41,499 nt of DNA from contig VGPU01000018.1 in the NCBI GenBank assembly GCA_016882525.1, positions 1-41,499 of the forward strand. Direction: 5' to 3'. The DNA is from Cyanobacteria bacterium M_surface_10_m2_119 (lineage in GTDB: Bacteria > Cyanobacteriota > Cyanobacteriia > PCC-6307 > Cyanobiaceae). Below are positions 4,537-12,951 of the stretch, one piece after another; position 1 is the stretch's first letter, and each line of letters begins with the position of its first letter. Under the pieces are notes generated by a model that worked only from the letters and a program-made list of their open reading frames with translations, did not search any database and had not been told where the DNA came from. Made by a program: the position numbers and the translations under genes.

Positions 4537-4647
4537 ATGGAACTGGCGCTGATCGTCCTGATTCCGGCCCTGCTGCTGAGCGGAGTCACGATCAATCTGG
4601 TGGCACGGGCGGAAGCCGAGGTGCTCCGGCGCCATCAACCGCACTGA
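4537..4647 (+). CDS. 36-residue single-span membrane protein
   Basis: Too short for usual gene calling. ATG 4537 follows a good ribosome site (AGGAGGCAAGGAGC directly upstream). The protein starts MELALIVLIPALLLSG, one hydrophobic segment of about 18 residues, then a charged tail (ARAEAEVLRRHQPH). It resembles the small single-helix proteins common in picocyanobacteria, some of which sit in photosynthetic or respiratory complexes; no family name can be given. Its 3' end overlaps the 3' end of the Nif11-type gene on the other strand by 13 bases. Confidence 0.5.
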   Translation: MELALIVLIPALLLSGVTINLVARAEAEVLRRHQPH

Positions 4648-4946
4648 AGGCGGGCCATGCCGAGGGCAAAGGAGCGCGCGAACTGGCGAGACCGGCCTGC
4701 CCAGGGGAGGGCGGGATGCTCGGCTGTCACGGCCAGCAACACGAGGTCGTTGCGGCTGAGCGGGCAATCCGCCGCTGCCGCCAGGGCCAGCAGCGCTTCC
4801 GCATCCCGACACCGCAGGAGGCTCCGCTGAAGGTCGCGGTTGGCATCCAGCACCTCAAGGAATCTCTGAGCTGCAGAGGAGCCGATCACCACAGACAGCA
4901 CAGCTTCCTCAAGTCTCTGCGCTACGGCGGCGCCTGTCGTCGTCAC
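4635..4946 (-). CDS. Nif11-domain small protein with PWxGRxxQ tail
   Basis: 103 residues from a GTG start at 4946. Residues 27-72 match the Nif11 pattern: RFLEVLDANRDLQRSLL, a short helix CRDAEALLALAAAADCPLS, then NDLVLL. Nif11 domains serve as leader regions of some cyanobacterial ribosomal peptides and also occur in proteins of unknown function. After the domain comes ALPWAGRSRQFARSF. The gene at 8718 has the matching FPWHGRPKQKRREF, so the two belong to one subfamily. No double-glycine cleavage site and no Cys/Ser/Thr-rich core follow, so it does not look like a lanthipeptide precursor. The start is uncertain because the ribosome site before GTG is weak. Confidence 0.7.
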   Translation of the reverse strand: MTTTGAAVAQRLEEAVLSVVIGSSAAQRFLEVLDANRDLQRSLLRCRDAEALLALAAAADCPLSRNDLVLLAVTAEHPALPWAGRSRQFARSFALGMARLQCG

Positions 4947-5073
4947 TTGTACTGGAGCCGCGCGTCAGCTCAGGGTTACTGCCTGGCGATGCCGCCGCCA
5001 TCTGCACCGAAACACGGAGAGCCAACGGCCACGACCAGGACACCCCAGCCCGACCATGCCATGTGTATGCGTG

Positions 5074-5096
5074 TATAGTCATAGCAGTGTGTGACT
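5074..5096 (+). promoter_or_regulatory. Candidate promoter and dyad before the sulfur cluster
   Basis: A -10-like TATAGT at 5074-5079 overlaps an inverted repeat AGTCA (5077-5081) and TGACT (5092-5096), just upstream of the ATG at 5105. Related sulfur clusters are controlled by ArsR-type sulfide sensors (BigR family) that bind over the promoter. The arms here are short and no such regulator is in the window, so this is only a candidate site. Confidence 0.25.
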
Positions 5097-5104
5097 GATC
5101 CGCC

Positions 5105-6241
5105 ATGGCCGTTGCAGTGGCGCCCTCCCTCTCCCTTGCCGCCGCGGCCGGCGGGGGGCACCTGTTGTTCCGCCAGCTCTTCGATGCCGATACGGGCACC
5201 TTCACCTATCTGCTTGCGGATGTGGCCAGCCGCCAGGGAGTGCTGATTGATCCGGTGTTTGAGCAGCACGCCCGCGACCTCTCCCTGATCCGTGAACTGG
5301 GGGTGGAACTGGTGGCCAGCGTCGACACCCACGCCCATGCCGACCACGTGACCGGCAGCTGGCTGATGCACGAGGCCAGCGGCTGCGCCATCGGTCTGGC
5401 CGCCGCCGCCGGCGCCGACCACGTGACGCTGCCGCTGGAGCACGGCGATCGGGTGGCCTTCGGCAGTCGCTTCCTCGAGGTGCGCAGCACCCCCGGCCAC
5501 ACCAATGGCTGTCTCACCTTCGTGCTCGACGACCGGTCGATGGCCTTCACCGGTGATGCCCTGCTGGTGCGCGGCTGCGGCCGCTGCGACTTCCAGCAGG
5601 GGAATCCCCACACCCTCTGGGCCTCGATCACCGAGCAGATCTTCACCCTGCCCGACTCCTGTCTGCTCTACCCCGGCCACGACTACACCGGCCGCACCAT
5701 GACCTCCGTGGCCGAGGAGAAGGCCTTCAACGTCCGCCTCGGGGGGGCCGCCACCGAGCGGGACTTCGTGGGTCACATGGAGAACATGAAGCTGCCCCAC
5801 CCCCACAAGATCGCCGAGGCCCTGCCCGGCAATCTGCGCTCCGGAAAACCGCGACAGGCCGACGGCAGCAAGGCCAGCTGGGCACCGCTGCAGCGCAGCT
5901 ACGCCGGCCTGCCGGAACTGATGCCGGGCTGGGTGGCAGACCATCAGAACCAGCTCACGATCCTGGATGTGCGCTCCAGCGAGGAATTCGAGGGGCCGGA
6001 TGGCCGCGTTGCCGGCAGCGTGCTGATCCCCCTGCCCGACCTGGAAGCGCGCGCGGGCACCCTTCCTGCCGACCGTCCCGTGGTGGTGGTCTGCCATTCC
6101 GGCAGCCGCTCCGCCCTGGCCACCCAGCAACTGCTCAAGGCCGGGCGCCACCAGGTGGCCAACCTCCATGGGGGCCTCAGCCGCTGGGCCGCGGAGGGCT
6201 ATCCACTGGAGGGCGCCATGGCCGCAAGGCCGACCGCCTAG
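5105..6241 (+). CDS. Metallo-beta-lactamase fold (ETHE1/Blh-like) fused to rhodanese
   Basis: 378 residues, two domains. Residues about 20-255 are an ETHE1-type persulfide dioxygenase-like fold with the metal site DTHAHADHVTGS, the His in STPGHTNGCL, the Asp in FTGDALLVRGCGRCDFQQGN and the His in LYPGHDYTGR. Residues about 280-370 are a rhodanese domain with DVRSSEEFEG and the active-site loop VVCHSGSRSA, including the catalytic Cys. Such fusions oxidise glutathione persulfide and transfer sulfane sulfur during sulfide detoxification, as in the Blh protein of bigR operons. It is followed on the same strand by a membrane rhodanese and a TauE-like permease, the usual partners. Start ATG 5105; the first 15 residues are Ala-rich. 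It ends in TAG. Confidence 0.93.
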   Translation: MAVAVAPSLSLAAAAGGGHLLFRQLFDADTGTFTYLLADVASRQGVLIDPVFEQHARDLSLIRELGVELVASVDTHAHADHVTGSWLMHEASGCAIGLAAAAGADHVTLPLEHGDRVAFGSRFLEVRSTPGHTNGCLTFVLDDRSMAFTGDALLVRGCGRCDFQQGNPHTLWASITEQIFTLPDSCLLYPGHDYTGRTMTSVAEEKAFNVRLGGAATERDFVGHMENMKLPHPHKIAEALPGNLRSGKPRQADGSKASWAPLQRSYAGLPELMPGWVADHQNQLTILDVRSSEEFEGPDGRVAGSVLIPLPDLEARAGTLPADRPVVVVCHSGSRSALATQQLLKAGRHQVANLHGGLSRWAAEGYPLEGAMAARPTA

Positions 6242-6364
6242 GTCACGCCCTGGATCGCCGGCAGCCCGTTCCCGTGCGGGTTGGCGGCATCGATCACCGA
6301 TCGACTCCTGCTCCGATTCCGCCTCTCCGTCCACTCCCCCCTGCTCTCGAGGCTCACTCCAGCC

Positions 6365-6895
6365 ATGACACCAGCCCCTGCCCAGCGGCGCATCAGCGCC
6401 CACCAGCTGGCCGACCAACTGGCCTAACAGCGCGTGAAGGTGATCGACGTGCGCGAGCCGATGGAATTCGCCAGCGGCCACATCGCCGGGAGCCTCAACG
6501 TGCCCCTGTCGCGCATCACCCAGGCCGATCTCCCCAATGGACCACTGGTGCTGGTGTGCCACAGCGGCAACCGCAGCGCCCAGGCCCTGGCCCAGCTGAT
6601 GCAGCAGGGGCATCCCCATCCCCTGGTGGATCTGGAGGGGGGCATTCCCGCCTGGCAGCAGGCCGGCCTGCCCATGCGCCAGCTGAAGAACGCCCCCCTG
6701 CCACTGATGCGGCAGGTGCAGATCGCCGCCGGCTCCCTGGTGCTGCTGGGCCTGATCCTCGGCACCTGGGTGGCACCGGCCTGGATCCTGCTCAGCTGGT
6801 TTGTGGGCGCCGGTCTGGTGTTTGCCGGCATCAGCGGCTTCTGCGGCATGGCCCGCCTGCTGGCCGCCATGCCCTGGAACCGGGTGAGGCTCTGA
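6365..6895 (+). pseudogene. Membrane rhodanese (YgaP-like, rhodanese + DUF2892) with internal TAA
   Basis: From ATG 6365 the frame reads MTPAPAQRRISAHQLADQLA, then a TAA at 6425-6427, then QRVKVIDVREPMEFASGH in the same frame through the rhodanese domain with active-site Cys in LVCHSGNRSAQ. Two hydrophobic helices follow (SLVLLGLILGTWVAPA and the ILLSWFVGAGLVFAGISG region) and the end is SGFCGMARLLAAMPWN, as in YgaP-type membrane rhodaneses. The stop removes the first helix. Restart at GTG 6434 could still make a slightly shortened protein, so some function may remain. One C-to-T change (CAA to TAA) would explain it. The stop TGA overlaps the start of the next gene (TGATG). Confidence 0.8.
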
Positions 6896-7380
6896 TGGAC
6901 CCCGCCAGCCTGGCCCTGCTGGCGGGCGGGGGCGCCGTGATCGGCTTCCTGCTCGCGGTGCTGGGTGCTGGTGGCTCGATCCTGCTGCTGCCCCTGCTGG
7001 TGAGCGGCGCCTCCCTGCCCACCCGGGAGGCGGTACCGCTCTCGCTGCTGGTGGTGATGCTGCTGGCCCTGGCCAGCGGCACCAGCCTGCTGTTGATCGC
7101 CGTGAATGCCCTGGTGGCGCTGGCAGCCCTGGGCCACTGGCCCGCCGCCAGCCTGCCGCTGGTGGCCCCGCTGCTGGTGGGGGGGGCCATTGGCGCCTCA
7201 GTCGGCCAGCGGCTCGCCCCCCAGCTGAACGACCGGCGCCTGCGCCAGGGCTTCTCCCTGCTGTTGATCAGCTCAGCCCTGCTGAGCGGCTGGGAAGCCT
7301 GGCGACGCCATCAGAACAGCACCCCATCCCCCAGCCCGATCCCATCCCCCGCTCTGCCGGAGATCTCCCGCCCTGGGTGA
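6895..7380 (+). CDS. TauE/SafE-like permease, shortened
   Basis: 161 residues from ATG 6895, overlapping the previous stop. TauE/SafE permeases export sulfite or sulfonates and usually have two homologous halves (about 250 residues, 7-8 helices), each with a GxGGSxxxxPLL motif. Here only one such motif is seen (LGAGGSILLLPLL). It is followed by REAVPLSLLVVMLLAL, then directly by GTSLLLIAVNALVALAAL and VGQRLAPQLNDRRLRQGF, which looks like the end of the second half. The simplest reading is an in-frame internal deletion joining half one to half two. The tail (SPSPIPSPALPEISRPG) is Pro-rich. As written it is probably not a working carrier unless it forms dimers. Confidence 0.65.
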   Translation: MDPASLALLAGGGAVIGFLLAVLGAGGSILLLPLLVSGASLPTREAVPLSLLVVMLLALASGTSLLLIAVNALVALAALGHWPAASLPLVAPLLVGGAIGASVGQRLAPQLNDRRLRQGFSLLLISSALLSGWEAWRRHQNSTPSPSPIPSPALPEISRPG

Positions 7381-7438
7381 CCCCGGCAGACGCCGGTCTG
7401 CATCCCGGAGGCGCCGCAGCGATCGGCAGGAGAGACCC

Positions 7439-7654
7439 TCAGTTGTATTCGCCGGGGATGTCCTGCTTGGTGACAGTGACACGGCCCACCCTCTGGCCCG
7501 AGAAGCGCAGCAGTTCATCCCCGGAGAAGACGTAGCCCAGGGGGGCAGCGATCTGGGCGACGTCATCGGCGGTCGCGGCCGCCTGTACCGCTCGGCGCAG
7601 ACCTTCGTCGGCCTGCATGCGCACCAGGAAGGCTTTCAGCTGATCAAGGGACAT
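7439..7654 (-). CDS. Nif11-domain small protein
   Basis: 71 residues starting MSLDQLKAFLVRMQADEG, then LRRAVQAAATADDVAQIAAP and GYVFSGDELLRFSG: the standard Nif11 arrangement over nearly the whole length. A short basic tail with VGRVTVTKQDIPGEYN follows, without Gly-Gly or a Cys-rich core. In other bacteria this domain is found near nitrogenase genes and as peptide leader, and it is numerous in marine Synechococcus; its role when alone is unknown. It overlaps the start region of the 63-residue ORF upstream by 19 bases, so the two are likely cotranscribed. Confidence 0.85.
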   Translation of the reverse strand: MSLDQLKAFLVRMQADEGLRRAVQAAATADDVAQIAAPLGYVFSGDELLRFSGQRVGRVTVTKQDIPGEYN

Positions 7655-7827
7655 GGCTGGATGGTGCGGCTTCTCAGGAGCTCGGCAACCGCATCCTGAT
7701 CGGCGAGGGCGAGACGCTCAAGCACGAGGGCCAGGTCTGAGGCGGATAGCTCCCCGCTTCCCTCCCAGTGCAGACAGGTGCGCCCCAGGCAGGTGTCGCG
7801 ATCCATTGCGGCGGTGTGATGTTGCAT
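7636..7827 (-). CDS. 63-residue hypothetical protein upstream of nif11-type gene
   Basis: ATG 7827 is preceded by GGGAGGGCGG on the minus strand, a good ribosome site. The protein (MQHHTAAMDRDTCLGRTCLH, then SASDLALVLERLALADQD) has two Cys residues near the start and a helical second half. It is not a recognised family. Its end overlaps the start of the Nif11 gene by 19 bases, suggesting translational coupling. A second ATG at 7806 is possible. Confidence 0.5.
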   Translation of the reverse strand: MQHHTAAMDRDTCLGRTCLHWEGSGELSASDLALVLERLALADQDAVAELLRSRTIQPCPLIS

Positions 7828-7902
7828 CCGCCCTCCCTGGTGTTGCGTCCATGATGGGGCCAAGCCCCTGCGCCCCGCGCCCCCCAAACGGGGGTGCAGC
7901 TG

Positions 7903-8058
7903 ATGCACAACCACCCGCTCTGGATGCTGCTGCCCTGGACGGTGTTTGCCGTGGGCGCCGCCCTGCAGTTCTGGCGCATCACCGGCGCCTTCCGCAGCGG
8001 CGCCAGAGTGCGCCAGAGGCTGGAACGCATCTGGCGAATGGATCAGCCACCGCCGTGA
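7903..8058 (+). CDS. 51-residue membrane protein, hypothetical
   Basis: ATG 7903 to TGA 8058. It begins MHNHPLWMLLPWTVFAVGAA, one likely membrane helix, followed by a basic segment (RSGARVRQRLERIWRMDQ). The GC-rich third positions fit local coding sequence. No family recognised. It lies between two minus-strand small genes. Confidence 0.45.
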   Translation: MHNHPLWMLLPWTVFAVGAALQFWRITGAFRSGARVRQRLERIWRMDQPPP

Positions 8059-8092
8059 GCGGCCGCCCAGGGAGCGGTCTGTATCCGGCCGA

Positions 8093-8239
8093 TCATCGCC
8101 GCAGGGCACTCCAGATCCACCAGCCCACCAGCAGGAGCGCCACCCAGGGGAGCAAGGAGCGGAAGACCAGCAGCACCAGCACGACCACAAGGGCAGACAC
8201 CGCCCCCCGGCGCACCATCGCCTTGGCGTCCTCGGTCAT
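8093..8239 (-). CDS. 48-residue membrane protein, hypothetical
   Basis: Minus-strand ORF from ATG 8239: MTEDAKAMVRRGAVSALVVV, then LVLLVFRSLLPWVALLLVGWW and a short basic end (SALRR). Two close hydrophobic stretches form one or two helices. It is tail to tail with the 51-residue ORF at 7903-8058. Not recognised; composition and helix pattern make it a credible small membrane protein. Confidence 0.45.
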   Translation of the reverse strand: MTEDAKAMVRRGAVSALVVVLVLLVFRSLLPWVALLLVGWWIWSALRR

Positions 8240-8447
8240 GTAGCGCCAGCGGGGCAACAGGGGCATCGGGGCGAGGAATGGACAGCGCGGACCCATCATC
8301 CAGCGTCCCGCATCAGGAAGGCGGGCGCAGGTGAGGCGGACGCAGCACCGGAACACCCATACCGGCTTTATGCATGTTCTGCACCAGGAGGCACGGGGAA
8401 TTGCCTGATGCATCAGGCGAGCAGATACTGCGGCTAGGAATGGCCGC

Positions 8448-8582
8448 ATGGGGGCTGAATTGCGAGCGGCCAGAACTGCCCTCTGTCTCGTTCTGATTCT
8501 TGCCTCCGCAGCCAGCGAACAACTTCTGGGAATCGTCGTCGTCTTCCTGATCTGGCTGATCCTGGAGCTGAGGCTGCCGTAA
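8448..8582 (+). CDS. 44-residue membrane protein, hypothetical
   Basis: ATG 8448 to TAA 8580-8582. MGAELRAARTALCLVLILAS followed by EQLLGIVVVFLIWLILELRLP: two hydrophobic segments with almost no loop. No strong ribosome site is visible. Family unknown. It is the last of four very small membrane ORFs between 4.5 and 8.6 kb. Confidence 0.4.
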   Translation: MGAELRAARTALCLVLILASAASEQLLGIVVVFLIWLILELRLP

Positions 8583-8717
8583 ACCTGCAGCCAACGTCCC
8601 AGAAAGGGGGTATGACCCAGGCAGGCTCTGTCCGTAGGGTTTGTGTGCGCGATCTCCACGTGCCCGCCCGCGTTCGATGCGCACCATCCAGCGGCCTTCG
8701 CCCTGAGCCCCAAGTCC

Positions 8718-9017
8718 ATGGAGAGCCAACCGATACCAACATGGCCCGTCTCCCTTGCCGAACGGGACCGGCGGGTTGCGGCCTTCCTGTGCAAGGCAAG
8801 CACGTCTCCAGAAATCCAGTTCGCCCTCAGAACCTCCGAATCCCTGCAGGAGATTCTCGGAATCACAGCCCGAGCTGGCTATCCGTTGCAGAAAACCGAC
8901 CTGGTGCTCACCTACCGGGACCTGAATCAGCCCTACTTCCCGTGGCATGGGCGACCCAAGCAGAAGCGGAGAGAGTTCATCCACCTCGGCAGCTTCGACG
9001 ACAGGGAGACTGACTGA
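8718..9017 (+). CDS. Nif11-like small protein with PWxGRxxQ tail
   Basis: 99 residues from ATG 8718 (MESQPIPTWPVSLAERD); the frame is open further upstream to 8643. The Nif11-like core is VAAFLCKASTSPEIQFAL, SESLQEILGITARAGYPLQ and KTDLVLTYRD. The segment after it, YFPWHGRPKQKRREFIH, matches the tail of the protein at 4635-4946, so these are paralogs with a shared extra C-terminal motif. No peptide-core features (Gly-Gly, Cys-rich end) are present. It marks the boundary to the lower-GC stretch that follows. Confidence 0.65.
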   Translation: MESQPIPTWPVSLAERDRRVAAFLCKASTSPEIQFALRTSESLQEILGITARAGYPLQKTDLVLTYRDLNQPYFPWHGRPKQKRREFIHLGSFDDRETD

Positions 9018-9197
9018 ATCGCAGCGCCCCTGGGCAGCGGATGTCTTCATCGGATCAGGCCAGCCCTGGATCCTGAGAGGGGACATCAGGGGCCCCAGGC
9101 ATACCGACCTCTGCTGGGAGAACAGCGCGGGCGCGCCGGAGAACAGACGCTGGCCCAAAGGCCCCGAGATTCAGGGTGCGGATCAAACACACAGAGG

Positions 9198-9932
9198 TCA
9201 TTGCCCCTGGACAAGGGCAACCGCCCTGGAAAGGGTGAGGCCCATGAAGTTATAGATGATCAATCCATGCACCAGAACAAGAACCCTTGCCCGTGCCGAG
9301 TTTCCCTGAATCACAGAGTTGCCCGGCGAGAGCAACGAAGAAAAGGAAGCGACGAAATAGTCCAATGGCCGTGGCACGTCGCCCTCGAAATCAAAGCGAA
9401 AGAGCGGACGGCACGCACCCCGAGCCAGCACATCCAAACGCCAGTAGATCCACCCCCACACCAGCAGCGAGAAAGGCAGAAAGAAAAGAAGCTGCTCAAT
9501 CAGAAGGTAGCAAGGTGTGATGTAGTCGAAGACGAGGATGTTCAAGCCCACAAGCTGAGCAAACATCCTTGCAATGATAAGGAGGCCCAGAATATCGAGG
9601 CAGGCACGGGTCCAAAGAGGCGTCTCACGGCAAGCAAGCAAGTACGAAAAGAGCGCCACGAATATTGGAGCAACCACATAGTGAAGACGGTTTACCGAAA
9701 AACCCTGGTAGACAGCAAACGCGGCAAACCATCCCCGAAGGGAGGGCATCGCATCTGCATCAATAACAAACAAGAAAACCTGCAGATACAACAACACAAG
9801 AACCAAAACAAAACAGATCACCTCCCATCGCCTCGAAAGGTAGAGGGATACCGCCGTGATCAGCCGAGACCTCGTCATGGCAGTGCGTTCACGATCATTC
9901 AATATTCTTCTGGGCCACAGGCCCACCATCAA
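9198..9932 (-). CDS. Polytopic membrane protein, weakly ion-channel-like
   Basis: 244 residues with about six hydrophobic segments (for example EVICFVLVLVLLYLQVFLFV near residue 35, LDILGLLIIARMFAQLVGL near 115, LLFFLPFSLLVWGWIYW near 150). The last 60 residues, DYFVASFSSLLSPGNSVIQG, then SARARVLVLVHGLIIYNFMG and LSRAVALVQ, follow the layout of a potassium-channel pore helix, filter and inner helix, but the filter TVGYGD is absent and SPGNS stands in its place. It may be a degenerate channel or another membrane family. Start ATG 9932 has GGAGG 11 bases upstream; ATG 9878 is an alternative. Codon use is less GC-rich than in the flanking core genes. Confidence 0.6.
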   Translation of the reverse strand: MMVGLWPRRILNDRERTAMTRSRLITAVSLYLSRRWEVICFVLVLVLLYLQVFLFVIDADAMPSLRGWFAAFAVYQGFSVNRLHYVVAPIFVALFSYLLACRETPLWTRACLDILGLLIIARMFAQLVGLNILVFDYITPCYLLIEQLLFFLPFSLLVWGWIYWRLDVLARGACRPLFRFDFEGDVPRPLDYFVASFSSLLSPGNSVIQGNSARARVLVLVHGLIIYNFMGLTLSRAVALVQGQ

Positions 9933-10538
9933 TCCCTGAATCGGCCTCCTTCATAATCGTTGTCGCGTGATCCCGAGATCACGCTGCAGCACCCCTTCCA
10001 TCCATCTGCATCTGCCCCTGGCTCGAAGCATCCATCCCCAAGGCCCCAGAAGAGGGCTGGATGCAAGGGCACGAGAAGGCCTGCAAAGAGCCGTCTCACG
10101 CATGAAGCTTCTGAACATGCTGCCACTGCGAACGGGTACGCCATCCCCTGCAATACCAAAGCCAACCACTGCTGCACGCAAGGCAAGATGAGCACGTACC
10201 TCTGTGCTGAGCACCAAGACACGTCTGCCCATTGGCAGGAACGCGAAGAGCCGTCGATTCGCCACGAAACATCACGAAGATAGCTTGCTCAGGCTCTTGC
10301 TGCATTCACAATGAACCAAGCGAAAGCTTCATCGCACTCCTCCATGACGGCGTCATAGTACTTAGATAGCCTGGCCTGAGAGATAGCGATTGGACGCACA
10401 AGGGATTCTCGGCTTGTCACCTTACGACCAAGTACTGGGACAAAGCCAGAGCGGCCAGCACAGCAAGATGAGAGAGACATGACTCGATCCAGCATCAAGA
10501 AGTCGTGCTAGAATCTCATCTACACACAAACGCAGTCA
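9933..10538. other. No credible gene seen
   Basis: About 600 bases with several short overlapping ORFs on both strands, none with a recognisable domain, consistent codon bias or ribosome site. The longest (minus strand 9951-10265 and 10289-10498) look like chance frames; part of the latter, ARLSKYYDAVMEECDEAFAW, reads somewhat protein-like and may be a gene remnant. Confidence 0.4.
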
Positions 10539-10868
10539 TTGAAGAAGCGCAAGCGAGGCCATCCATGGCGTTCCGCTGATTACTGCAAATGGTTTTTGTT
10601 GCAGATGGCAGCCGTCGCGGGAATTGCCGGTAGTGCAATAGCTGTTCCTGTCTTTGCAGCGAGACCGGGAGCAACGTTTCACAAGACTGCGGGCGGCGAA
10701 CAGATCGCAGTTCCCTATGGGGTTCTCATCGCTCCGATAGAAGGCGTGAATTACAACAAAAGCGGTTGGCGCAAGTGGAGATTGGTAGATGGAAGAGGAA
10801 AACCTGTTCAACCATCAACTGCATGGGTCAAATGTTCAATGACAGGTCCGTCGGTTGGTCTGATCTGA
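10539..10868 (+). CDS. Small putative exported protein, 109 residues
   Basis: Reading frame from a TTG at 10539: basic start KKRKRGHPWRSADYCKW, then a hydrophobic stretch QMAAVAGIAGSAIAVPVFAA that looks like a signal peptide with an Ala-x-Ala-like cut site near residue 40, then a mature part of about 68 residues with IAVPYGVLIAPIEGVNY and GWRKWRLVDGRGKPVQP. An ATG at 10608 would leave only a shortened signal. Not recognised as a family. The unusual start codon and the surrounding decay make it uncertain whether it is expressed. Confidence 0.45.
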   Translation: MKKRKRGHPWRSADYCKWFLLQMAAVAGIAGSAIAVPVFAARPGATFHKTAGGEQIAVPYGVLIAPIEGVNYNKSGWRKWRLVDGRGKPVQPSTAWVKCSMTGPSVGLI

Positions 10869-11067
10869 TGTCGACCTCTGCTGGCACCACCTGCACCTGC
10901 CTGCCGGTGGGGATATACAACTAGGAGTGCCCTGAGTCCTCCATCAGCATCCCTATGAAGGCAGAAAACCTAGAAGCCATACCCATCTGATTCCGTGGTG
11001 CCGATTCGGACAGCTGCTGGTGCGGGGGAGTGCCCTGGAACACTTCACTCAGGCCCACCCAGTAGCA

Positions 11068-11262
11068 ATGGCACAAAACAATGCCAGTGCCCCAAGCAGT
11101 TTTGCATCCGCATCAGCAAGGAGCTGATGGAACTCGTCTCTGAGATTCAGGACTCCCGACGCCACACCAAACAAGTCACCAACGCTTGCCGCCATCGTGG
11201 AGGACACCATCCGCTGCCTCGACAACCGTCTAGTGAGCGAGGGTGCCATCAGCGGCAGATGA
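11068..11262 (+). pseudogene. Small ribbon-helix-helix-like protein with two compensating frameshifts
   Basis: Frame A starts MAQNNASAP at 11068 and also supplies the end, NKSPTLAAIVEDTIRCL and then DNRLVSEGAISGR, to TGA 11262. The middle, KQFCIRISKELMELVSEIQD, is in a second frame. Joined, they give about 65 residues of the kind seen in short ribbon-helix-helix or related DNA-binding proteins (basic strand FCIRISKEL, then the helix SPTLAAIVEDTI). Two opposite one-base shifts, one near 11095 and one near 11160, are needed. Without them frame A stops after MAQNNASAPSSFASASARS. Either the gene is decayed or the sequence here is inaccurate. Confidence 0.45.
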
Positions 11263-11278
11263 CCCACATCCCCTACCG

Positions 11279-11623
11279 ATGAAAAAGACCATCCTGACAC
11301 TGGCACTAACAGTAGCTCTCATTCCTCTGACTGCAGAAGCAAAGGAGGCCCGCTGCGTCATCAAGCAGAACGGCAGCGTCGCCTACTCAGGTGCCTGTCA
11401 CTTTGATCTTGGGGAGGGCGGCAGTTTCGCCATCAGACGCCAAGGCAGCACACCGATCCTCCCAAACATCACCGACATCTCCGTGAGCATCGTCTCCACA
11501 GACGTCGCTGAGGTTCGTGGCCTGACCACCGATGGCATCAATTCCCGATGGGGCACTGCGGTGAGGAGCAAGAAAGACCCTGCCTGCTGGACCGGTTCTG
11601 ACTTTGAGATCTGTGCCTACTGA
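11279..11623 (+). CDS. Small secreted hypothetical protein, 114 residues
   Basis: ATG 11279 opens a clear signal peptide, MKKTILTLALTVALIPLTAEA, with cleavage expected after AEA. The mature part has four Cys residues (ARCVIKQ, SGACHFD, DPACWTG, DFEICAY) that could form two disulfide bonds, consistent with a periplasmic or secreted protein. It contains GSFAIRRQGSTPILPNI, a beta-rich pattern. No family name. The stop TGA at 11621-11623 overlaps the ATG of the next ORF (TGATG), so the two form a unit. Confidence 0.65.
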   Translation: MKKTILTLALTVALIPLTAEAKEARCVIKQNGSVAYSGACHFDLGEGGSFAIRRQGSTPILPNITDISVSIVSTDVAEVRGLTTDGINSRWGTAVRSKKDPACWTGSDFEICAY

Positions 11624-12042
11624 TGTCTCTTCCTATTGACCCAGAGGCACTCCAGCAGGTTATTGAGACCAACCCCCAGAAGAGCCAGACTCGTTCAGCA
11701 ACCAAGCATTTCTGAGTCCTGATGCCCTGCTCCAGAGACGGGTGGAGATCTCAAGGCAGAACCAGATGCTGAAGGAGGAGCGCCAGGTGATTGAGGCGGA
11801 ACACTCTGCGGTCTTTGCTCCTGCTGAATTCCGCCATGGTATTCGTACCCCTGGTGACTGGATGCATCGCCAAAGGTCACAAACCTGCTGGGACGACTCC
11901 CCTGAGGTGCGGGATGTCATCAAGAGTGTTCAGCGGCAACCACAGCAGGATGGTCTGGCACAGCCGCTCAACAGCACTGTTCTATGCCTGCTTCAGGAGA
12001 ATGCTGACTCAGGAACAGGAGCAGATTCGAAACACCCGCTGA
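11623..12042 (+). pseudogene. Frameshifted hypothetical protein downstream of secreted gene
   Basis: ATG 11623 reads MSLPIDPEALQQVIETNP and then stops early. Adding one C in the CCCCC run near 11675 leads into EEPDSFSNQAFLSPDALLQR, then RVEISRQNQMLKEERQVIEA and EFRHGIRTPGDWMHRQRS in one frame. The joined start has a natural look with a charged coiled-coil-like segment (SRQNQMLKEERQVIEAE). The 3' end is unclear: the frame stays open to 12401 against the Nif11 gene, while another frame ends IRNTR at 12042, so a second shift is possible. Not a recognised family. I give 12042 as a conservative end. Confidence 0.4.
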
Positions 12043-12281
12043 AGGTGAATGATGGGATTCGTGCTGTCCTCGCCACGCACGAACCACTTCTCCGTGCTCC
12101 CACTCCTCAACAGGGCACAGAAGTCATCAGCGTCTATCAGGATGCCGATGGCAACTGCCAGGGCAACCATCTCATCGGGTGTCGTCGCACCGTAGAACTC
12201 CTCCTCAACCTCTGGATCGCCATCCACCTGGTGACAGAGATGATCCAGCACATCCAGAAGGGGTGGCGAGTCAGCGGTCAT
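12009..12281 (-). CDS. Nif11-like small protein
   Basis: 90 residues from ATG 12281, which has a strong ribosome site (GGAGGT about 8-10 bases upstream). It reads MTADSPPLLDVLDHLCHQVD, then DPEVEEEFYGATTPDEMVAL and AVAIGILIDADDFCALL. The spacing of the two helices and the final DxxDF fits the Nif11 domain, with more acidic residues than the others here. The tail STEKWFVRGEDSTNPIIHLQ has no core-peptide features. It overlaps antisense with the degenerate gene at 11623-12042. Confidence 0.6.
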   Translation of the reverse strand: MTADSPPLLDVLDHLCHQVDGDPEVEEEFYGATTPDEMVALAVAIGILIDADDFCALLRSGSTEKWFVRGEDSTNPIIHLQRVFRICSCS

Positions 12282-12765
12282 TCCGCCACCTCCAAAGACC
12301 CTCCAACGCTACTCAGGCACGGACCCCCTGAAGCATCAAACTTTACAAGGCAAGGGTCAAGGACTCAACGACTTGCGCCGAATCCCAAAGAGGATCAATG
12401 AGTACTCTTGCTACTCGCAACGGCTCCACTTCTCCCATAGCCAAGTTCATTGAGCGGAGTGCTGAAGACACTCCTTCCGAACTGAACCACCCGATTGACC
12501 CTCCGCACCTCAAGACGGGGTATCGGAGAATCCTCAACAGATTTGCTCCGTCTGCGCCCACCCACCTTCAAGGCACGCACTTACGAGTCAGAGTGAGGCA
12601 TCTCAGCAATCCAGCAACACGCGCCCTTGGTCCCACAGCGCATCCAACAACACGCTGGTTGGAGATCCTCGTTTAGAGCAAACGAACCCGGACGACCAAT
12701 CCGCCAAGAACCCAGATCCAGCAAAGGGTCTGGATGAACAAGAACCTTTGAAGAACCCTTGAATA
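12282..12765. other. No credible gene seen next to tRNA-Ser
   Basis: Short ORFs exist on both strands (plus 12398-12676, minus 12343-12580) but neither has a domain, a ribosome site or convincing codon use. The bases just downstream of the tRNA 3' end (12720-12765) contain two copies of a short AGAACC(C/T)TT-like word, possibly part of a weak terminator for the tRNA. Confidence 0.4.
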
Positions 12766-12850
12766 CGGAGAGGGTGGGATTCGAACCCACGGAAGGTTGC
12801 CCTTCAAACGATTTCGAGTCGTTCGCTTTCGACCACTCAGCCACCTCTCC
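12766..12850 (-). tRNA. tRNA-Ser (anticodon CGA)
   Basis: On the minus strand the 5' acceptor GGAGAGG (plus CCTCTCC ending at 12850) pairs with the 3' CCTCTCC before discriminator G at 12766. A class II variable arm, the D-arm GGCTGAGTGGTCG and the T-loop GGTTCGAATCCC are present. The anticodon loop reads ACTCGAAAT, giving CGA, which decodes UCG. Length 85 is right for a tRNA-Ser, and the CCA end is not encoded. It lies downstream of comEC on the same strand; small hairpins (GCACC/GGTGC at 12885-12900 and TCTCTA/TAGAGA at 12928-12947) lie between them. Confidence 0.95.
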
Positions 12851-12951
12851 GGGTGGGGATGCAGATGTTGCTCTGCGGGGTCACGCACCGCTAGGGGTGC
12901 CAGACGCCAGCAGCTCGCAGACCTGAATCTCTAGGACACTGTAGAGAGCGA

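Follow-up and report, generated by a model that had tools for sequence, protein, structure and literature searches.

A W-x10-F tail marks what appears to be a new subfamily of Nif11-like proteins in cyanobacteria

The 41,499-nt contig VGPU01000018.1 of Cyanobacteria bacterium M_surface_10_m2_119, analysed here over its full length (the window; contig C18 of the 2.62 Mb genome G000), encodes two short proteins, P1 and P2, that carry a similar tail, LPWAGRSRQFARSF in P1 and FPWHGRPKQKRREF in P2, after their Nif11-like part (Table 1). Both open frames and both tails are present where an earlier note on this DNA had placed them. P1 probably starts at the GTG at 4889, giving 84 aa, because its ortholog in genome G006 (60% identity) has the matching GTG-ATC-GG start and an in-frame stop shortly upstream. 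P2 is 36-42% identical to relatives in three other genomes (G115, G142 and G171), and a profile search of the window's genome retrieved a third tail-bearing copy on another contig (C47:10717-10872). The Nif11 core ascribed to both proteins holds in part: most of the Pfam Nif11 profile (PF07862) could be aligned, from position 5 to 46 of 48 in P1 (E=3.2e-4) and from 6 to 44 in P2 (E=0.05), but the matches are weak, at 21.4 and 14.3 bits against a gathering cut-off of 23.8 bits. Since these scores lie below the cut-off, we term P1 and P2 'Nif11-like'. They also miss the curated cut-off of the NCBIfam model TIGR03798 (32.3 bits), scoring 13.8 and 14.7 bits, respectively.

Judged by sequence comparison, the tail common to P1 and P2 is not explained by chance. 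LPWAGRSRQFARSF and FPWHGRPKQKRREF are identical at 7 of 14 residues, and when a single tail was shuffled, the score of the real pair was matched once in 200,000 trials. The score of the full-length alignment was reached by none of 5,000 shuffles, and the parts preceding the tail are related too (1 of 5,000 shuffles as good). We also scored the proteins against a matrix built on 35 distinct tails, leaving out the members of the window's genome and the G006 ortholog; this test is not fully independent, because P1 and P2 were among the rows of the profile that had recruited those tails. The tails of P2, the third copy and P1 scored 33.0, 31.5 and 16.5 bits, while the best of 415,068 other 16-mers scored 8.8 bits. 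Shuffles and matrix scores alike speak against a chance profile match, the objection that the earlier note had raised against itself.

A profile of the C-terminal half, with P1 and P2 among its rows, was used for genome searches. At most 12 or 17 candidates were scored per genome in the wide searches, so that copy and genome counts are lower bounds. The 400 genomes searched in the taxonomic family of the window's genome yielded, at E≤1e-8, at least 47 tail copies, spread over at least 37 genomes and 9 out of 59 genera. In a phylum-wide sample of 386 genomes (142 genera), at least nine matched at E≤1e-4, all of them in that same family. These results bear out the proposal of a separate subfamily defined by the tail. 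The five named relatives returned by a protein search come from Synechococcus or other cyanobacterial assemblies, and we regard the window's genome as picocyanobacterial. A 24.8-bit match in region L120, to a protein of the type found at 12009 in the window, was excluded from the family counts. Of the 47 copies, 44 were examined closely, those in regions L097-L136 and in the window; the second G002 copy and the G343 and G055 copies were left out.

A conserved tail exists, but the motif first proposed for it, PWxGRxxQxxRxF, is too narrow: over the 44 members, the Trp and Phe of W-x10-F alone are invariant (100%), an invariance partly built in, because the members were recruited by a tail profile. 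The usual form is [WF]PW...RR.FF, with Pro before Trp in 77% of members, the first Arg in 89% and the second Phe in 77%. The majority residue has a mean frequency of 0.53 over the 21 tail columns, modestly above the 0.46 of the 30 core columns, and the protein ends within 10 residues of the profile match in 35 of the 44. In the P2 subgroup (n=4), 20 columns are invariant, 12 of them in the part that begins at Tyr66 (YRx[LF][ND]x[PE][FY][FW]PWxGxPxQxRRxFxHxG).

A tree built on 81 columns, which does not separate transfer from loss, grouped P1 with its G006 ortholog (support 100/97), P2 with copies of genera g45 and g10 (99/96) and the third copy with a copy of genus g6 (100/100). As each copy groups with those of other genomes, the three appear to be different, older members of the subfamily rather than recent duplicates. 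The P1 and P2 groups were joined at 90/82, short of firm support. At the codon level, sequence comparison shows purifying selection on the P1 pair (dN/dS 0.39 against the G006 ortholog) and on most other pairs, with values of 0.09-0.43 in 13 out of 14 computed pairs, not all of which are independent.

Existing models cover the Nif11 part of these proteins. PF07862, with which they share a helical N-terminal part, gave matches at E≤0.01 to 19 of the 24 members compared with it, the best at 9.8e-11, and this 48-position model stops before the tail. Among the same 24 members, no model of the tail itself was found in Pfam or NCBIfam and no shared family in PHROGs, where two unnamed families matched one member each (best E 3.7e-5 and 6.4e-4). 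No description of a W-x10-F tail was found in the literature searched, in which subscription journals are thinly covered. The Nif11 domain is known, while the subfamily with the W-x10-F tail appears to be new. A comparable description is that of the 'group F' Nif11 peptides, which end in GEYH/N and to which their authors ascribe a mostly conserved core peptide (Arias-Orozco 2023, PMC10783134; here and below, papers cited by PMC number are represented by the sections available to us). Group F shares with the W-x10-F subfamily a Nif11 part and a conserved C-terminus, but the C-terminal sequence differs.

In peptide pathways, the Nif11 fold is the part recognised by maturation enzymes, and the genes of prochlorosin precursors and of their enzyme can be far apart. 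The tail might be a short core peptide, for instance a Trp-modified one, carried on a Nif11 leader and processed by a maturation enzyme whose gene lies at another place in the genome. This we regard as quite unlikely, although a Nif11-like leader part is common to the tail proteins and to the TIGR03798, N11P and prochlorosin precursors, and 17 of 24 members match TIGR03798, a leader model for ribosomally synthesised and post-translationally modified peptides (RiPPs), at E≤0.01 (best 2.7e-10). Such matches are expected, because the Nif11 part is common to both, and as a result automatic annotation may label some members as peptide precursors. The proteusin-leader-guided bromination of a C-terminal Trp offers a precedent for such a product (PMC10286304), but no Trp halogenase was detected at E≤1e-10 in any of 80 genomes, with at most 17 candidates scored per genome, and bromination of the tail was rejected on that basis. 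Unlike TIGR03798 precursors, the members have no Cys in any of the 44 sixteen-residue tails, and 42 of the 44 lack a GG in the part that runs from the first residue of the profile match to the Trp.

Co-occurrence with maturation enzymes or transporters, which the earlier note had suggested looking for, did not emerge for LanC-like and C39 genes. LANC_like was matched in 5 of the 37 tail-positive genomes and likewise in 5 of the 43 tail-negative ones, and Peptidase_C39 in 21 of 37 and 22 of 43, so that neither is commoner with the tail; both do occur in part of the tail-positive genomes, which fits a core peptide. The tail-negative set comprises genomes without a match at E≤1e-8, hand-picked from the same genera rather than drawn at random, and two of them (G190 and G134) have weak partial matches in the phylum-wide search. 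In the window's genome, LANC_like, Peptidase_C39 and Trp halogenase are all absent (YcaO and radical-SAM enzymes were not searched for). Furthermore, the tail is predicted to be helical and is conserved at least as well as the Nif11 columns, whereas prochlorosin cores are described as non-conserved (PMC10783134). On present evidence, the tail does not look like a cleavable core; it is probably not a peptide product but a folded part of the protein, in agreement with the suggestion that no peptide core follows the Nif11 part.

The predicted helices come from AlphaFold2. In the model of a relative, L139, the mean predicted local distance difference test score (pLDDT) was 88.6, and two tail helices (residues 65-69 and 71-79) lay in blocks scoring 88-90. 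The P2 model (mean pLDDT 72.9) has four helices before the tail and one, residues 81-90, within it. Among solved structures, the Nif11 leader of MppE (PDB 9zn4), a RiPP leader from Moorena, was matched by the profile over positions 2-51 (E=1.2e-4), with no sequence match to the tail part. Two other candidates from the profile search were rejected: TAL effector repeats, its top PDB rows, aligned across some 30 residues, of which no single stretch passed by itself, and were taken as a repeat artefact, and Hha/YmoA reached E values of only 0.6-0.96.

Taken together, these observations make it fairly probable, in our judgement, that P1 and P2 are paralogs of an unnamed picocyanobacterial subfamily of stand-alone Nif11-like proteins, each an uncleaved intracellular adaptor or co-regulator whose tail completes the fold and whose gene is accessory. 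The tail, at the position of the leader-to-core joint, is predicted to fold as short helices beside the Nif11 bundle, giving one small globular protein, and its conserved Trp, Arg and Phe would complete the fold and a binding face. The Nif11 fold would then serve as a plain binding module, in a protein that acts as an intracellular adaptor or co-regulator without being cleaved, modified or exported, and the gene would be gained and lost as an accessory gene. That a leader-type surface might serve other partners can be set beside NHLP, another long leader family, in which the folded leader contacts its enzyme (PMC12455567). If the tail is folded and has no linked maturation genes, part of the Nif11 proteins counted so far would not be peptide precursors, and the tail subfamily would offer a small, testable protein set for Nif11 roles outside peptide pathways.

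Several observations weigh against this proposal, besides the TIGR03798 matches and the recruitment effect on the W and F columns given above. Cys occurs just outside the tail in some members: P1 ends in QCG, and in L110, L117 and L123 a Cys immediately precedes the tail. The two AlphaFold2 models rest on seven sequences, and confidence in that of P2 is moderate. Foldseek returned no PDB fold match at E≤0.001 for either model, and none in BFVD. The best structural row in a second look was the MppE leader (Z 3.7 over 61 residues), a score on a par with the 3.0-3.5 of unrelated rows; its alignment reaches model residue 76, and the tail helices may, thus, be the end of an ordinary leader. As regards selection, the L115/L121 pair has a dN/dS of 1.08 and the P2 pair was saturated in the calculation; for P2, selection is suggested through its kept protein similarity only. 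At the position of P2, a rough gene caller based on codon usage favoured an antisense frame (8316-9158, minus strand); we gave this little weight, because the clear metallo-beta-lactamase/rhodanese gene at 5105 was likewise called wrongly. Finally, no partner emerged, neighbourhoods vary among subgroups, and no single context fits the whole family.

Neighbours were identified through Pfam in some cases and by similarity in the rest, and some gene maps rest on the listed part of the output of the codon-usage caller, which puts genes in the wrong place in this DNA. In 6 out of 41 regions (L101, L102, L106, L111, L112 and L128), a LysR-like gene is located within 1 kb of the tail gene, co-directional in some and divergent in others; two of three LysR-like proteins tested passed the LysR_substrate cut-off, and no helix-turn-helix family was matched. 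A narrower form of our proposal would have the tail proteins be accessory co-regulators that work with an adjacent regulator, such as the LysR-like one, in genomic islands. There is a precedent in Unk10, a Nif11 protein of 107-118 aa that lies beside AraC-type regulators in the CA4 chromatic acclimation island of marine Synechococcus (PMC3877281), and LysR-like relatives (E≤1e-10) occur in 28 of 37 tail-positive against 23 of 43 tail-negative genomes, a difference that may reflect genome size. The other 35 regions, however, have no such gene within 1 kb, nor has either window gene, and the two LysR-like matches of the window's genome are on another contig, C19. Moreover, the six regions amount to five genomes of three genera, and in two of them (G238 and G302) the regulator match contains stop codons. 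We consider this narrower form rather unlikely.

Other neighbours differ from one subgroup to another. In 4 of the 41 regions, the tail gene is followed directly (-4 to 6 bp) by a gene whose product, some 145 aa long, carries Cys pairs (FCPKH...FCPxCG). Phycobilisome-protein genes are found near the tail gene in L131 (two) and L132 (one tested); in both regions the tail gene belongs to the WIW subgroup and is divergent from them. A gene for a ParA-like or polysaccharide-type chain-length protein is found in L103, L104 and L108, GroEL in L110, L117 and L123, a ClpC-like ATPase in L133 and L135, and a permease pair in L122. The P1 locus is partly kept in G006. A broader idea, which we put forward tentatively as an unlikely one, is that in picocyanobacteria the Nif11 fold, a handle in peptide maturation, has been turned into a regulatory adaptor family, the folded tail of each subgroup serving the adjoining system (LysR-like, phycobilisome or polysaccharide). 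Unk10, described as a Nif11 protein of unassigned role (PMC3877281), would be a possible relative in kind.

P2 lies in a stretch of lower GC content (8001-12000): its two 2-kb bins have values of 0.596 and 0.556, and the other bins of the window range from 0.60 to 0.76. A tRNA-Ser gene (12765-12851) is found 0.8 kb beyond it, some 4 kb from P2. This stretch is possibly a decayed island. By eye, a conserved ribbon-helix-helix-like frame near 10995-11279 seems broken relative to L101, L112 and L120. Nif11 genes have been reported beside transposases in an island of Prochlorococcus MIT9313, where four of five responded to nitrogen stress (PMC2784084). The tail proteins could, in principle, be selfish or decaying cargo, remnants of core-less Nif11 precursors drifting in genomic islands, a reading consistent with their patchy occurrence, with the low-GC setting of P2 near a tRNA gene and with the one pair whose dN/dS exceeds 1. 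Against it stand the dN/dS values of the 13 other pairs and the keeping of the tail in nine genera, and we hold it to be very improbable. A phage or plasmid origin was rejected, as a tblastn search with P2 returned no match among phages and plasmids; scans of IMG/VR with two alignments gave 4 and 26 pattern matches, none of them a relative by tblastn.

Table 1. Coordinates of the tail proteins and associated features, in the window unless a region is named
Feature	Position	Strand	Remarks
P1, tail-bearing Nif11-like protein	4635..4889	-	Probable start; frame of the earlier note opens at 4946
P1 conserved tail	4668..4709	-	LPWAGRSRQFARSF
P2, tail-bearing Nif11-like protein	8718..9017	+	99 aa
P2 conserved tail	8937..8978	+	FPWHGRPKQKRREF
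Nif11 protein without this tail	7439..7654	-	Nif11 56.5 bits; ends in GEYN
Nif11-like protein with a different conserved C-terminus	12009..12281	-	About W-x-V-x-GE...NPIxHLQxVF; relatives 64-73% identical in L101, L112 and L120
Cys-pair protein of about 145 aa	L112 7197-7625; L120 6650-7090; L101 8211-8516; L102 3915-4355		L112 copy: no Pfam family above cut-off

Beside P1, the window encodes on the plus strand (5105-7380) a metallo-beta-lactamase/rhodanese fusion, a rhodanese with a YgaP-like membrane part, both assigned through Pfam, and a membrane protein that by eye resembles an exporter of sulfur compounds; these genes are likely a sulfide or persulfide set. A short membrane protein, beginning MHNHPLWMLLPW, is encoded at 7894-8055 (plus strand), and relatives of it are found near tail genes in L105 and L121.

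The two further Nif11 proteins of the window lack the W-x10-F tail, as had been noted from the sequence. The protein at 7439 fits the description of group F (PMC10783134), and that at 12009 has its own conserved C-terminus. Proteins of the latter type were detected in 11 of the 80 genomes, and at four places, namely the window, L101, L112 and L120, they are encoded no more than about 5.5 kb from a tail gene. A genome-wide link between the two was rejected, as 12009-type proteins occur in 5 of the 37 tail-positive genomes and in 6 of the 43 tail-negative ones. One more Nif11 protein of the window's genome (L007, G000:C4:73495-73626; profile E=0.41) ends in SWIGNCQLWRGYLQPG, perhaps a degenerate form of the tail.

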